Made by a program: the position numbers and the translations under genes. A stretch of 64,000 nucleotides of DNA from assembly GCA_030432565.1 (NCBI GenBank), contig JAUIGV010000006.1, positions 62,001 to 126,000 of the forward strand, written 5' to 3'. The notes below the pieces were generated by a model. That model had not been told where the DNA came from, did no database searches, and saw nothing but the letters and a program-made list of their open reading frames with translations. Below are positions 37,647-42,940 of the stretch, one piece after another (positions within the stretch are counted from its first letter, which is position 1; every line of letters starts with the position of its first letter). The stretch comes from Verrucomicrobiia bacterium (GTDB lineage: Bacteria > Verrucomicrobiota > Verrucomicrobiia > Verrucomicrobiales > Akkermansiaceae).

Positions 37647-37989
37647 CGACTCTGGAAATTAAAACCAAGAGTGAGGGAGATGCGCTTCAATCCATGATTG
37701 CGGCTTATGAAGTCGAGCTAATTGCTCTTGATGCCTTTGGCCGCTGTACTTCCCTGGTTGAGATGCCACGTTCTCCGATTCGATCTCTGCGAACCACCGT
37801 TGTCGTTTCCATGGGGTAGCCGTTACTTTTGGGGCTTCCATCATCTCGTGGAGTTCAAAATCCCGGGAATGGGGAGAAACGAGTGTGGTTTGCCTTTGTG
37901 ACTCTAGGGCAGGTGGAAGAGTGATTTTGAGCAATCTTTGACAGAGTTTTGACACAGGTAAAATCTCAATGAGGCAGTTTGATGCCAGT
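37647..37989. other. non-coding interval with no clear gene
   Basis: About 340 bp between the transposase remnant and the exported-protein pair. An open frame at 37631-37819 with a TTG start has no recognised features. A TTGACA box occurs twice (around 37940 and 37951), the second just upstream of the gene cluster, but no convincing -10 follows. Confidence 0.35.
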
Positions 37990-38760
37990 ATGAATAAGCA
38001 AGGATTTTGCGGTCTGACACTGGGGGTTGCATTGCTCGGGATTCCCGCGACCATTTTCGCACAGGAAGATCAACCGATCCCCCCCAAACCAGTGGTGTCC
38101 ATGCCGGTGAACCCATTGCCGGTGAAGGTGGTGTATGAGGTCTTTAGCTTGCCCATGACTGATGGGGCTGCTTTGCAAAGGGCGGGAATTACCGATGCGG
38201 AATTTTACAGTCGGCTGGTAGCGGGTTTGAAAGAGAAGAAGGTGAAGCTCGAAAGCTTTCTGACCGTGCGTGGAATTTCAGGGCAGTCGATGGTGACGAG
38301 TCAGGCCGAGGACTACACCTATCCTTTGGAGTTTGAGCCAGCCGAGCTTCCCAATCAGGTGATCGGTATGGATAGGAAAAAAGACGCAAAGGGCAAAGAG
38401 ATCACAGTTTTCCCGGTCACGCCTGCAACGCCTAGCGCCTACAAAAAGAAATTACTGGGAGAAACTCTCGAGGTTGAGGCCGTGGTGAAAGAGAACGGCC
38501 GGATTGATCTGAGAGTGGCGCCGACCCGCACTGCGCTCATTCAGAAGGATAGCTACGGCCAAGGGCTTTCCAAAGTGGAGATGCCCCGGTTTTCCACACC
38601 CGAAATCCGCACGGCGGTGAAGACGCTATCGGGCCAGGCCTTCTATCTCGGAACGGTAAGCGCCCCCGACGAGTTGCAACCTGAAGAAGGGGGCCAGATG
38701 GTCAGCTTTGCCTTTATTACGGCGACAGATTTGAGCGTAGAAGCTTCCAAAACCAAGTAA
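37990..38760 (+). CDS. exported protein of unknown function, paralogue A
   Basis: 256 residues from the ATG at 37990, giving a signal peptide (MNKQGFCGLTLGVALLGIPA, cleavage after TIFA). An upstream ATG at 37969 is possible. The mature protein starts with a short Pro-rich stretch and contains VVYEVFSLPM, a Ser/Gly region RGISGQSMV, and PTRTALIQKDSYGQGLSKVE. The next gene, 3 bp downstream, is a paralogue with the same order of blocks. No domain family was recognised. It heads a cluster ending in a two-component system, so a role as signal input or target is an inference. Confidence 0.75.
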   Translation: MNKQGFCGLTLGVALLGIPATIFAQEDQPIPPKPVVSMPVNPLPVKVVYEVFSLPMTDGAALQRAGITDAEFYSRLVAGLKEKKVKLESFLTVRGISGQSMVTSQAEDYTYPLEFEPAELPNQVIGMDRKKDAKGKEITVFPVTPATPSAYKKKLLGETLEVEAVVKENGRIDLRVAPTRTALIQKDSYGQGLSKVEMPRFSTPEIRTAVKTLSGQAFYLGTVSAPDELQPEEGGQMVSFAFITATDLSVEASKTK

Positions 38761-38763
38761 GAG

Positions 38764-39531
38764 ATGAATGTAAAACTATTCGCAGTGATAAGTGGGGTTG
38801 TAATCTCCGGGGCGATGCCTCTGGTGGCTCAGGAAGAAGAGGTCCCCAAATTGATTCAGGTGGTTTACGAGGTTTTTTCACTTCCCGAAGCTGAAGCCGC
38901 GCAGAGCCAACGTGACTCGCTCACCGACCGGGAGTTGTATGCCCGGATGGTGACCGGTTTGGAAAAGGGGGAGGTGAAGCAGGAGAAGCTCCTGGCGATC
39001 AGATCGCTCGCCGGGCAAAAAGCCACGGTTGATCATGTGAGTGAATTTATGTTCCCAACTCAATTTGAACCGCCCGAGCTACCCAATCAGCTGGGAGGTT
39101 TTCTGGAGCAGGCCGGAGATCAGGAAAGTGCCGACTTGGCAGAGTCGTTGGCCAAAGCCAAAAAAGGAGCAGGTTGGCATGAAGGAAATTTCCCAGTGAC
39201 TCCGGCGACTCCGGCAGCTTTCGTAACAGCAAAACTGGGCGATTCGCTGGAAGTCGAAGCGGCACTTGGTACGGAAGCTGGATTCGTCTCATTGAGTTTT
39301 GCCGCCACCCACCTGGCCTTGAAGGGTTCGGATCTCTGGGGGCAGGGATTATCGGAAGCCAACATGCCCCGTTTCGAGGAGCAGAAGTTGCAATCGAGTT
39401 TCACTCTCAAAGGCGGGGATCCAAGCTTGATCGGAACGGTTTCACCAAGTCCGGCCACCCGGAAAAAGGATGGGGTGGCTCGGGTTTGGTTCGCTTTCGT
39501 CACGGCATCTGTCGTAGAAGGGCCGAAGTAA
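38764..39531 (+). CDS. exported protein of unknown function, paralogue B
   Basis: 255 residues, signal peptide MNVKLFAVISGVVISGAMPL. Matching blocks with paralogue A are VVYEVFSLPEAEA, LTDRELYARMVTGLEKGE, RSLAGQKATV, FPVTPATPAAF, and the LWGQGLSEANMPRFE stretch. The pair arose by tandem duplication. The histidine kinase gene starts 10 bp downstream. Confidence 0.75.
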   Translation: MNVKLFAVISGVVISGAMPLVAQEEEVPKLIQVVYEVFSLPEAEAAQSQRDSLTDRELYARMVTGLEKGEVKQEKLLAIRSLAGQKATVDHVSEFMFPTQFEPPELPNQLGGFLEQAGDQESADLAESLAKAKKGAGWHEGNFPVTPATPAAFVTAKLGDSLEVEAALGTEAGFVSLSFAATHLALKGSDLWGQGLSEANMPRFEEQKLQSSFTLKGGDPSLIGTVSPSPATRKKDGVARVWFAFVTASVVEGPK

Positions 39532-39540
39532 AATTCTTCA

Positions 39541-41061
39541 ATGGGAAAAATCTATTTCGGTCTCGTGCTCACTTTGCTGGTTTCTCTCGTTGTCCTGCTC
39601 GCGGGAGGAGTTCTGGCGAAGCGCTCGATTACGCGGGTCACTTCTGTCGACCGTGAATTACTCAAGGATCTTTCGGCCAAAGTCGCATCGGTCGTGAGTG
39701 AGTGGAAATCAAAGCGTGTGAAAGCCCTTGAAGAGATTGCCTATGAGGCTGCGAAGCCGATGGCTGAGGAGATCGAGGCAAAAATCTCGGCGCTGCCAGG
39801 AGTGCGGGGGGCTTTCCTTTTTCAAGAAGGGAGGCCGGGGCGTGAATGGGTTTTATTGGGGCGGGTTGGGTCAAGATCGCCGGCGGAAGTGGTGGTGGAG
39901 GGAGTGAAGGCTCCTTTAATCGCGGAGCGGGCAATCGTGGTGCCGGAGGGGCTTTTCAAGGAAGTGACATTCGGGGAATCAGGTCGGATCGACAATGAGG
40001 AGCGGTCATTTTACGGTTGGTGGTTTTCTCCTTTGCAGGGAGTTGTGGTCTTATATTTGTTGGAAAGTGGCTTGGAGGAGGCCGCGCTGATGAGTGAAGT
40101 CGGCTTGCAAATCCGGGACGATTTTGAGCGGGCTGCGATAGCCGGGGCAACGGTGGAAGCCGTTTACAACGGGAAGCGCCTTGCTGGCGAGGGGTTGACG
40201 GAACGGATGGCAACAGCTGAAACGGGAGACGGTAGGTATGCGGTCCGCGCGTGGGATCGCAGGACCGAGGAGCAGGAATTTGACTGGACCACGATGTTTG
40301 GTGCGATTGGACTCGCGGTTGTGATCGCCGGAGTAGGCCTTGGATTGTTTTATTCACAGCAGCGGATGTGGCGGGCTTCCGAACAAAGGGTTTCCTTCGT
40401 CAACCGGGTTTCCCACGAGCTTGGCACCCCGCTGACAAATATGACTTTGAACCTGGAGTTGGCATCAAGGTCGCTTCGGTCACAGCCCGAGATGGCCGGG
40501 CGTCGGTTGGAGAAGGTGAGTGAGGAGATTTCAAGGCTGGGACGTCTTGTGACGAATGTTCTGACTCACTCTGGGAAGCCGGGCGACGGGATTCAGGATC
40601 GCCTGGTTGTCTGTGATCCCGATGCGGTGATTCTCGGGGTCTTGGACCAGTTCCGGCCCGCGCTTGAGCGGCGTGGAATCGAGATTGAGTGGACCCCAGG
40701 CGAGACGGGGGAACAACGAATCAATTCGGATGCCTTATCCCAGATCGTCTGGAATCTGATATCGAATGTTGAGAAGTATGCCTCAAGTGGTGAATGGTTG
40801 TCGGTTTCTGTTTCGCAGGTTGATGGGTCTTTGAGGGTAAGGGTGTGCGATCGGGGTGAAGGAATTCCCCGTGAGCGCCGTGCAAAGGTCTTCAAACCAT
40901 TCGAGCGCGTTTCCGACTCAACCAAGGAAGGAGTGAGCGGAACAGGGCTGGGACTTTCGATTTCGCGTGAGTTGGCGGAGTCGATGGGTGGAAGCCTCTC
41001 GCTGCTTGATGACCCCGAGATGACTATTTTTGAACTCATAATCCCCCTGAAAACGACATGA
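39541..41061 (+). CDS. membrane sensor histidine kinase
   Basis: 506 residues. A membrane segment (about 5-24) and a second (about 252-271, MFGAIGLAVVIAGVGLGLFY) flank a periplasmic sensor region of about 225 residues with no recognised fold. The HisKA domain has the phospho-acceptor His292 in SHELGTPLTN. The ATPase domain shows NLISNVEKYA, DRGEGIPRE and GTGLGLSISRELAESMGG. The gene overlaps the response regulator by 4 bp (ATGA), so the two form a system. Confidence 0.95.
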   Translation: MGKIYFGLVLTLLVSLVVLLAGGVLAKRSITRVTSVDRELLKDLSAKVASVVSEWKSKRVKALEEIAYEAAKPMAEEIEAKISALPGVRGAFLFQEGRPGREWVLLGRVGSRSPAEVVVEGVKAPLIAERAIVVPEGLFKEVTFGESGRIDNEERSFYGWWFSPLQGVVVLYLLESGLEEAALMSEVGLQIRDDFERAAIAGATVEAVYNGKRLAGEGLTERMATAETGDGRYAVRAWDRRTEEQEFDWTTMFGAIGLAVVIAGVGLGLFYSQQRMWRASEQRVSFVNRVSHELGTPLTNMTLNLELASRSLRSQPEMAGRRLEKVSEEISRLGRLVTNVLTHSGKPGDGIQDRLVVCDPDAVILGVLDQFRPALERRGIEIEWTPGETGEQRINSDALSQIVWNLISNVEKYASSGEWLSVSVSQVDGSLRVRVCDRGEGIPRERRAKVFKPFERVSDSTKEGVSGTGLGLSISRELAESMGGSLSLLDDPEMTIFELIIPLKTT

Positions 41062-41723
41062 AGATTCTTGTGACTGAAGATGAGCCGATGACCCTTGAAG
41101 CCTTGGGGGAACTCCTGCGGATGGAAGGTTTTGATGTTGTGGAAGCCAGCGGTGGTGAAATGGCCTTGAAACTTTGGGAGGAAGTTCATCCTGATTTGGT
41201 CTGCCTGGATATTATGATGCCGGGAATGGACGGGTACGAGGTTTGCCGGAGATTACGGGAGAAGGATTCACGAACCCCCATTCTGTTTCTTTCAGCGAAA
41301 AATGAGGAGAAGGATATCGTTGCCGGGCTTGAACTCGGGGCGGATGATTTTATCCGGAAGCCTTTTTCGACAGGAGAGGTGATGGCGAGAATCAAATCGG
41401 CCTTACGGCGTGCCTATCCGGAGAAGGGGAGCCGTAAGATCCAAATGGCGGACGTGGTGGTTTGGCCGGATGAACTTCGGGCCGAGCAAAACGGGTCGGG
41501 GATCGAGTTGACACTCCGGGAGGTGAAGATGCTTCTCTTGCTCGAAGAGAAGAAAGGTCTGCCGGTGTCGCGTGACGAGTTTTTGGATCGATGTTGGGGG
41601 ATGGATTATTTTCCGGATTCGCGGACGCTGGATCAACATGTGCACATGCTGCGCAAGAAGATCGAAGGCGGGAGCGAGTTGATCGAGACGGTGCGCGGGG
41701 TGGGGTATCGATTCCGGGGTTGA
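41058..41723 (+). CDS. OmpR/PhoB-type response regulator
   Basis: 221 residues. The receiver domain (1-120) has acidic residues at EDE, the phospho-acceptor Asp51 in LVCLDIMMPGMDG, and the conserved Lys in IRKPFS. The winged-helix DNA-binding domain (about 130-221) ends RTLDQHVHMLRKKIEGG, TVRGVGYRFRG. It is likely phosphorylated by the kinase encoded upstream and may control the exported paralogues in the same cluster; this is inferred from context. Confidence 0.95.
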   Translation: MKILVTEDEPMTLEALGELLRMEGFDVVEASGGEMALKLWEEVHPDLVCLDIMMPGMDGYEVCRRLREKDSRTPILFLSAKNEEKDIVAGLELGADDFIRKPFSTGEVMARIKSALRRAYPEKGSRKIQMADVVVWPDELRAEQNGSGIELTLREVKMLLLLEEKKGLPVSRDEFLDRCWGMDYFPDSRTLDQHVHMLRKKIEGGSELIETVRGVGYRFRG

Positions 41724-41770: not shown

Positions 41771-41941
41771 ATGAATGACAACGAGGTCCAATGTCCGTCC
41801 TGCGGTGAGTGGTTTTCCATTTCCATGGTGGCACCCGAGGACTACGGGAGCCAGATGGACTACGATTGCGAGGTGTGTTGACGCCCGATGACGCTCATGG
41901 TCGATGAGCAGGGGGGGGTAAGCGCGATGGGGGGCTGCTAG
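41771..41941 (+). CDS. candidate selenoprotein: CPXCG zinc-ribbon-like protein with in-frame TGA
   Basis: 56 residues if TGA at 41879-41881 is read as selenocysteine (residue 37). The protein MNDNEVQCPSCGEWFSISMV continues to DYDCEVC-U-RPMTLMV and ends GGC before TAG. The CPXCG Cys-rich family has CPxCG near the N-terminus and DCxxCC-P further on, with a second Cys of the CC pair directly after the first; here Sec sits at that place. The last TAG (41939-41941) is immediately followed by the next gene's ATG at 41942, so the read-through frame fits the gene boundaries exactly. A strong SECIS-like hairpin follows the TGA. Function of this family is unknown; metal binding is likely. Confidence 0.75.
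41893..41909 (+). promoter_or_regulatory. candidate bacterial SECIS hairpin (CPXCG gene)
   Basis: GCUCAU-GGUCG-AUGAGC forms a perfect 6-bp stem with a 5-nt loop. The loop starts 18 nt after the UGA and begins GG. In E. coli fdhF the SECIS apical loop also begins about 18 nt after the UGA and contains GGUC (remembered, not checked). Near-perfect geometry makes this the best SECIS in the window. Confidence 0.65.
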
Positions 41942-42940
41942 ATGAGCGATTTGGTGTCGGTGGTTTTCCCGATTGGGCCCGGGGTGTTTGATGCGGTTTT
42001 GGCACTGGATGATTTGCTGGGGCAGAGCTACTCCAGTCTCGAGGTAGTGGCGGTGCTGAACGGGTGTCCGGAAGGAGTAAGGCGGGAGTTTTTGGACCGG
42101 AATGATTCTCGACTCAGGATCATTGATTTGGGGGGTGAGCCCGGATTGTTGGATGCTCTTGATGTGGCGGTGGAGAATTGCCAGGGCAGGTGGCTGGCGC
42201 GGATGGATGCAGATGACCGGTGCGATTCGACGAGGATCGAGAAGCAGGTCGCGTTGCTGGAATCCGGTCAGTGTGAGGTGGCGAGTTGCGGGATCTCGCT
42301 CAAGGGGGCATTGGGTGATGGAATGCAGCGCTATGTGGATTGGGTCAACGGACTGGACAATCCGAAGAAGGTTTCGCGGGAGAGATTTGTGGAGAGCCCG
42401 GTGGTGCAACCCACGGTGATGATGGCCAGGTGCTTGTTTGAGGAAGTCGGAGGTTACTTGCGGAACGGTTTTGCGGAGGACTACGATTTGTGGCTACGCT
42501 TACTGGAGCTCGGCGCACGATTTGGAAAGGTTCCGGAGTTGCTTTATGACTGGTATGATCGACCGGATCGTTTGACCCGGAGCGATCCCCGTTTCGACCA
42601 TAAAATGATGCTGGCATTGAAAGCTGATGCCTTGGCCCGCCTTCCTGAGATCCAGGAGAATGGCGTCGTGATTTCGGGTGCCGGACCCATCGGGAAGGTG
42701 CTGGGACGCGAATTGATTTCGCGGGGAATTGCGGTGCGGGGGTATTTTGAGGTGAGTCCCAAAAGGATTGGGAGCACTTGCCAGGGGGCTCCGATCGCGG
42801 GCCCTTGGGAATTTGGGCGGCGCTGGCGGGACGCCATTTTGCTGGCAGCGGTGGGCGTGGGTGGTGGCCGGATGAAAGTAAGAAAGTTGGCCAACGAGGC
42901 GGGATTCAAGGAAGGAAGCGACTTTTGGTGCTGTTGTTAG
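41942..42940 (+). CDS. family 2 glycosyltransferase with C-terminal Rossmann-like domain
   Basis: 332 residues. The GT-A domain (about 1-215) has VSVVFPIGPGVFDAVLALDD, the DxD-like MDADDRCD, and YDLWLRLLELGARFG. The C-terminal part (about 230-332) begins GVVISGAGPIGKVLGRELIS, like a dinucleotide-binding or PglD-type fold, which is not usual for GT2. The protein ends in FWCCC. It starts directly after the TAG of the CPXCG gene, so translational coupling is likely. It probably transfers a sugar to a surface polymer; acceptor unknown. Confidence 0.85.
   Translation: MSDLVSVVFPIGPGVFDAVLALDDLLGQSYSSLEVVAVLNGCPEGVRREFLDRNDSRLRIIDLGGEPGLLDALDVAVENCQGRWLARMDADDRCDSTRIEKQVALLESGQCEVASCGISLKGALGDGMQRYVDWVNGLDNPKKVSRERFVESPVVQPTVMMARCLFEEVGGYLRNGFAEDYDLWLRLLELGARFGKVPELLYDWYDRPDRLTRSDPRFDHKMMLALKADALARLPEIQENGVVISGAGPIGKVLGRELISRGIAVRGYFEVSPKRIGSTCQGAPIAGPWEFGRRWRDAILLAAVGVGGGRMKVRKLANEAGFKEGSDFWCCC

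Follow-up and report, generated by a model that had tools for sequence, protein, structure and literature searches.

A TGA-interrupted CPXCG-family gene of marine Akkermansiaceae very probably encodes a selenoprotein

A small gene of the CPXCG family carries a TGA codon inside its reading frame, which raises the question of whether the codon ends the protein or is read as selenocysteine (Sec). The gene lies in a stretch of DNA of 64,000 nucleotides, which was analysed as a whole and is referred to below as the window. An initial annotation of the window had proposed that the TGA hides a 56-residue selenoprotein that standard gene calling would stop early. We compared the locus with its relatives, searched the genome for the Sec machinery, and evaluated the hairpin that follows the TGA. 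Decoding of the UGA as Sec, with the gene being the Sec form of Cys_rich_CPXG, was found to be very probable on this comparative evidence.

TGA and Cys at one codon of the CPXCG gene

The frame, the in-frame TGA and the TAG (41939-41941) that directly abuts the next ATG (41942) were found to be correctly described, to the base. The translation is MNDNEVQCPSCGEWFSISMVAPEDYGSQMDYDCEVC (36 residues, ending in DYDCEVC), then the TGA, then RPMTLMVDEQGGVSAMGGC (19 further codons) and the TAG. In a search of the whole genome with PF14255 (Cys_rich_CPXG), the locus was matched across the TGA with 28.3 bits, and the 56-residue protein with the TGA read as Cys scored 35.3 bits; the gathering cut-off is 25.2 bits, and Pfam membership is set by score and not by the fifth Cys. 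All 41 members of an alignment of relatives match PF14255. Counting the TGA as C at column 37, the residues C8, P9, C11, E13, D32, C33, C36, C37, R38, and P39 are invariant in this alignment. The TGA corresponds to C37, second in the CC pair (DYDCEVC(C)RP), and the Cys of the homologues falls exactly at the TGA codon, where the initial annotation had expected it. The four knuckle Cys, C8, C11, C33, and C36, are all retained in the UGA forms.

Table 1 Features of the CPXCG-U locus, in positions of the window.
Feature	Coordinates	Strand	Remarks
Sensor histidine kinase, presumably paired with the response regulator	39541..41061	+	HisKA, HATPase_c; ends at TGA
OmpR/PhoB-type response regulator, directly upstream	41058..41723	+	PF00072, PF00486; ends at ordinary TGA
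Predicted selenoprotein gene CPXCG-U	41771..41941	+	56 residues, putative Sec at position 37, then TAG; PF14255 match through TGA
Putative Sec codon TGA, residue 37	41879..41881	+	At the fifth invariant Cys column of the CPXCG family
Putative bacterial SECIS hairpin	41893..41909	+	GCUCAU / loop GGUCG / AUGAGC, 17 nt from UGA to loop
Glycosyltransferase family 2, FWCCC tail	41942..42940	+	PF00535 45.5 bits; start abuts the stop of CPXCG-U

To determine how the codon varies, we used 145 genomes of the family, each from a different species and each matching PF14255; 23 of them belong to the genus of the window. Within the genus, one TGA was found inside the PF14255 match in 16 of the 23 genomes and none in the other 7, while a stop inside the match was found in 0 of the 122 family genomes outside the genus. 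In the loci that were read, the TGA occupies the identical codon every time (DYDCEVC, TGA, RP, or a near variant). The 7 stop-free genomes of the genus have Cys at this codon, as does every further family locus read. The stop in the 16 genomes is always TGA and never TAA or TAG. The genus with the UGA form consists of marine Akkermansiaceae/Verrucomicrobiales MAGs.

A DNA-pattern scan of 84,980 species genomes gave 18 matches, 15 of which are the same locus, from public MAGs named Akkermansiaceae, Verrucomicrobiales or Verrucomicrobiota. The remaining matches (L088, L089, and L093), from outside Verrucomicrobiota, have broken frames without CPxCG and were rejected as chance. A scan of the phylum found no further UGA form among 50 matching genomes. 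The CPXCG gene was not detectable in four genomes of the same genus (G001, G007, G013, and G015, 81-96% complete). Three of these (G007, G013, and G015) have a tRNA-Sec match above the cut-off, suggesting that the gene may be dispensable or lost.

The codons after the TGA evolve as coding sequence. Among the 16 UGA forms, pN/pS is 0.20 upstream of the TGA and 0.40 downstream in frame, and the other two frames downstream give 0.96 and 1.55. R, P, and G at positions +1, +2, and +11 are invariant, yet all four codons of each (CGN, CCN, GGN) are used. The frame closes 18-20 codons past the TGA, near the length of the Cys homologues. Judged by these substitution patterns, the frame after the UGA is under purifying selection at the protein level.

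The genome was found to contain SelA (489 bits, cut-off 267.9), full-length SelB (316 bits, cut-off 242.25), SelD (387 bits, cut-off 125), which has one in-frame TGA of its own, and a tRNA-Sec gene (54.4 bits), which ARAGORN calls as tRNA-SeC with anticodon tca. All UGA genomes but one gave SelA (15 of 16); the exception, G022, is 72% complete. Beyond the genus, SelA was found in several genera of the same family and order, which makes the Sec form of CPXCG, as far as seen, a narrow acquisition within a wider Sec-using group. The two genes just upstream, for the histidine kinase and the response regulator, terminate at UGA, indicating that the code has not been reassigned. The initial annotation had named stops at unrelated positions in relatives, loss of the frame after the TGA in close relatives, and absence of selA, selB, selC or selD as signs against Sec. 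At this codon the relatives carry either TGA or Cys and no other stop, the frame is kept in all 16 UGA genomes, and all four genes are present. The proposed 56-residue selenoprotein is thus supported by the TGA/Cys exchange among relatives, by selection on the frame, and by the Sec genes.

The history of the exchange was examined in trees. In the CPXCG gene tree, the Cys forms of the genus group together (100/99), either beside the UGA forms or nested among them. In the SelA tree, two Cys lineages are basal in the genus and a third is nested within it, and the base of the genus is poorly resolved in the SelD, SelA, and gene trees. These trees are compatible both with a single gain of Sec plus one reversion to Cys and with multiple gains.

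The hairpin downstream of the UGA

The perfect 6-bp hairpin with a GGUCG loop that the initial annotation had reported was confirmed at the given distances: GCTCAT (41893-41898), GGTCG (41899-41903), and ATGAGC (41904-41909), with the first stem base at the 12th nt after the TGA and the first loop base at the 18th. The SECIS of E. coli fdhF has a GGUC loop; the distance from UGA to GGUC is nearly the same in CPXCG-U, and the stem sequence differs. A published model of the bacterial SECIS sets a loop of 3-9 nt, a stem of 4-16 bp, a G in the first two loop positions, a spacing of 16-37 nt, and an MFE of at most -7.5 kcal/mol (PMC13188914). The hairpin of the window agrees with this model (6 bp, GGUCG, 17 nt, -15.8 kcal/mol). 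The published rules are satisfied by 52% of the 2,287 TGA triplets in the window, and 5.4% of them have a GG/GU loop on a stem of 6 bp or more. The single-sequence fold gave z -0.65 for 48 nt and z -1.8 for 27 nt. Hairpin thermodynamics were rejected as proof of Sec because such hairpins are too common and the fold is not significant. The proposal that the hairpin is a SECIS therefore stands as regards the published rules, which half of the TGAs in the window also pass, so that the hairpin alone says little.

The comparison among genomes was more informative. In 16 of 16 UGA genomes, GGUC is found 17 nt downstream of the UGA. The hairpin is held by codons +5 to +9 (mostly CTC, NTG, GTC, GAT, and GAG), whose mean third-position entropy in the UGA forms, 0.27 bits, is the lowest of any five-codon run of the gene (median over all such runs, 1.26 bits). 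The Cys forms have 1.27 bits at the same codons. By this measure, an RNA-level constraint on the hairpin is present in the UGA forms only. In terms of sequence comparison, it is the position of the TGA in 16 genomes and the synonymous freezing that go beyond chance, not the hairpin alone.

Pairing itself is kept to a varying degree. Two stem pairs are changed on both sides in G024 (G-C to C-G and A-U to G-C), both compensatory changes coming from this one sequence. The stem is weakened or shifted in four genomes: it is re-formed with a bulge around the GGTC loop in G017 and G025 and has one mismatch in G020 and G023. Pairing cells amounted to 88.9% for the real stem and 22-47% for slid versions, and a pair-shuffle control was modest (6/500 for pairs with double changes). 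An Rfam scan of the locus matched only a tRNA-Pro downstream.

A covariance model (R1) was tried as a finder of other SECIS elements and was set aside, as it returned the gene itself plus weak matches. R1 scores the Cys forms weakly because the coding sequence is shared, which is not evidence of a relic SECIS. In the Cys forms of G002, G009, and G018 (L032, L038, and L045), which belong to one clade, a stem of 5-7 bp is possible if G-U pairs are included, and it carries a GGTA loop at the same 17-nt distance. This stem is possibly a relic SECIS left after reversion to Cys, or a chance product of the coding sequence.

In nearly every genome of the genus, SelD is itself a selenoprotein, most often with SCGG-U-ASKLG (L097-L116; G000:C73:16415-17344). 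Its hairpin is conserved and has a loop sequence unlike that of the CPXCG hairpin. As the loops differ, the SelD hairpin was rejected as the source of a common SECIS consensus, and two SECIS types may serve one SelB.

In one genome (G003; L033, L132, L154; G003:C127:34400-47170), the selenoprotein gene is interrupted at the SECIS hairpin by an insertion of about 12.7 kb, with the 14-bp direct repeat CTCATGGTCGATGA on both sides. At the left junction the UGA and loop are kept and followed by a new C-terminus; the right junction retains what is left of the original tail, together with the glycosyltransferase. By eye, no recombinase was evident among the longer ORFs of the insertion.

Alternative readings and the role of residue 37

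If the UGA were a real stop, the product would be a 36-residue protein ending in DYDCEVC and the downstream codons would be an untranslated leader of the glycosyltransferase. UGA does terminate the two upstream genes, and the truncated product would keep the four Cys of both CxxC knuckles. However, the sequence past the TGA is selected as protein in frame only (the pN/pS of 0.40) and matches the Cys homologues, the codon is never TAA or TAG in the 16 genomes, and each of the 16 frames ends at a length usual for the family, so we regard termination as very unlikely. Readthrough of UGA occurs in bacteria, and a near-cognate tRNA or a reassigned code might read it as Trp, Cys or Gly. That homologues carry Cys, not Trp or Gly, that neighbouring genes end at UGA, that tRNA-Sec, SelA, SelB, and SelD are present, and that a conserved SECIS-like hairpin follows the UGA makes such decoding highly improbable. 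A pseudogene, or a stop made by sequencing or assembly error, would be in keeping with the draft state of the MAGs and with the insertion of 12.7 kb in the 3' part of the G003 copy. Nevertheless, 16 species genomes, each assembled separately, share this TGA and conserve both frame and hairpin, and pN/pS stays low on both sides of the codon (0.20 before, 0.40 after), which reduces the probability of a pseudogene or error to almost nothing.

Under Sec decoding, tRNA-Sec and SelB would read the UGA by recognising the hairpin with its GGUC loop 17 nt later. The product would adopt the fold of a small zinc ribbon resembling LysW, with a single zinc bound by C8, C11, C33, and C36. U37, adjoining C36, would be an extra selenolate for redox chemistry, through a C36-U37 or an inter-protein selenenyl-sulphide, or for soft-metal binding, and this chemistry would serve the adjacent glycosyltransferase with the FWCCC end.

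The AlphaFold model shows a small, mainly beta domain (pLDDT 82, pTM 0.58). In a second-look structural alignment, the five best listed matches were LysW zinc-ribbon carriers (Z 4.6-5.3), and the ZitP zinc finger (Z 3.6) ranked after the LysW chains and one other chain. No Foldseek match reached E 0.001, and a PDB sequence search gave weak zinc-finger matches only. The modelled CPXCG fold thus looks weakly LysW-like. The LysW amino-group carriers, small zinc ribbons with a CPxCG knuckle and a C-terminal Glu attachment site, are the closest solved fold among the matches listed (rmsd 2.0-2.8), but identity is 11-22% and the attachment site is not apparent in CPXCG-U.

The two CxxC knuckles (C8/C11 and C33/C36) suffice for one zinc, which leaves residue 37, next to C36, as an additional and invariant thiol or selenol. 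The initial annotation had placed the Sec in a CC pair next to a metal-ligand Cys; the position holds (C37 of CC), and is refined to an extra fifth Cys after a CxxC knuckle that is not obviously a zinc ligand. With Sec insertion granted, the Sec could still be a zinc ligand or a mere substitute for Cys, without redox or soft-metal chemistry. Sec can coordinate zinc, and residue 37 directly follows the knuckle Cys C36. Against this, C8, C11, C33, and C36 already provide four ligands, all kept in the UGA forms, and the fifth Cys is invariant in its own right. In most families with Cys-to-Sec changes, Sec takes the place of a redox-active Cys (PMC1794560), from which we infer a redox or soft-metal function of residue 37. 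A ligand or substitute role therefore appears possible though doubtful; a free redox- or metal-reactive residue beside the zinc ligand is more likely from the sequence pattern, and a zinc ribbon plus a reactive extra Sec is the somewhat favoured description of the product.

Related selenoproteins and neighbouring genes

CPXCG-U shares its length, CPxC, the DYDCEVC-C-RP motif, and all invariant columns with the PF14255 Cys form, and differs from it in the UGA (Sec) for the fifth Cys and in the SECIS-like hairpin. The UGA forms have CPSCG and a different tail, whereas the Cys forms of the same genus have CPTCF...SLDE. FmdB is a predicted zinc-ribbon protein. It resembles CPXCG-U in its small size and in having Sec among its Cys, but has Sec at both positions of a CxxC knuckle, whereas in CPXCG-U the Sec follows an intact CxxC. 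The FmdB-family putative regulatory protein (TIGR02605) is listed as a UxxU selenoprotein (PMC13188914), so the principle is not new: Sec in a zinc-ribbon-like protein, which the initial annotation had called unusual, has a precedent. The CU-motif selenoproteins (KCU-star/DUF466, SaoC, and MbdU; PMC13188914) also have Sec directly after Cys and, by their listed accessions, belong to different domain families.

Neither PF14255 nor any CPXCG protein appears among the 119 prokaryotic selenoprotein families inventoried in 2026 (PMC13188914). No family of the NCBIfam release of June 2026 matches CPXCG-U up to E 0.1, and no earlier report of a CPXCG selenoprotein or of a Verrucomicrobia case was found in titles and abstracts of the open-access literature. 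CPXCG-U would thus add a selenoprotein family to the known list, from marine bacteria with little described selenium biology, which standard gene calling would report as a 36-residue stub or miss. Inert positions seldom acquire a fixed Sec, which points to the fifth Cys in the CPXCG family as the probable reactive residue. Singling it out makes the function of this broadly distributed, uncharacterised family testable, and a natural Cys/Sec comparison is available within one genus.

The glycosyltransferase gene is located directly downstream in the window and in 10 of the 15 UGA loci of the pattern scan, and not directly at the locus in five UGA genomes (G003, G010, G016, G019, and G024). Most Cys forms of the genus show the linkage as well, as do several other genera. 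In many relatives the stop of the selenoprotein gene abuts or overlaps the glycosyltransferase start (TAGATG or TGATGG), which suggests coupled translation. The C-terminal part of the glycosyltransferase (stretch 242-321) has a weak NeuD-like match below the cut-off. Its FWCCC end is common to most relatives, including UGA genomes, Cys genomes, and other genera. This Cys-rich tail, on a glycosyltransferase adjoining a Cys/Sec zinc-ribbon gene, lies at 42920-42940 in the window and was also seen in L001, L003, L006, L008, L028, and L079-L094, with the variants FWSCC, FWCLC, FWSVC, and YYCCC.

From gene order, the glycosyltransferase is a tentative candidate for the partner of the CPXCG selenoprotein. 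We consider it unlikely that Sec insertion gates the glycosyltransferase, with its translation coupled to ribosomes passing the UGA. If it did, selenium status would set the level of the Cys-tailed glycosyltransferase, with the CPXCG selenoprotein as its redox or metal partner.

Upstream of the kinase gene, two adjacent similar ORFs of 263 and 255 aa were found at 37969-39531, both with a VYEVFSLP motif and one with a weak secretin match. Such a pair beside the kinase was also observed in L087.
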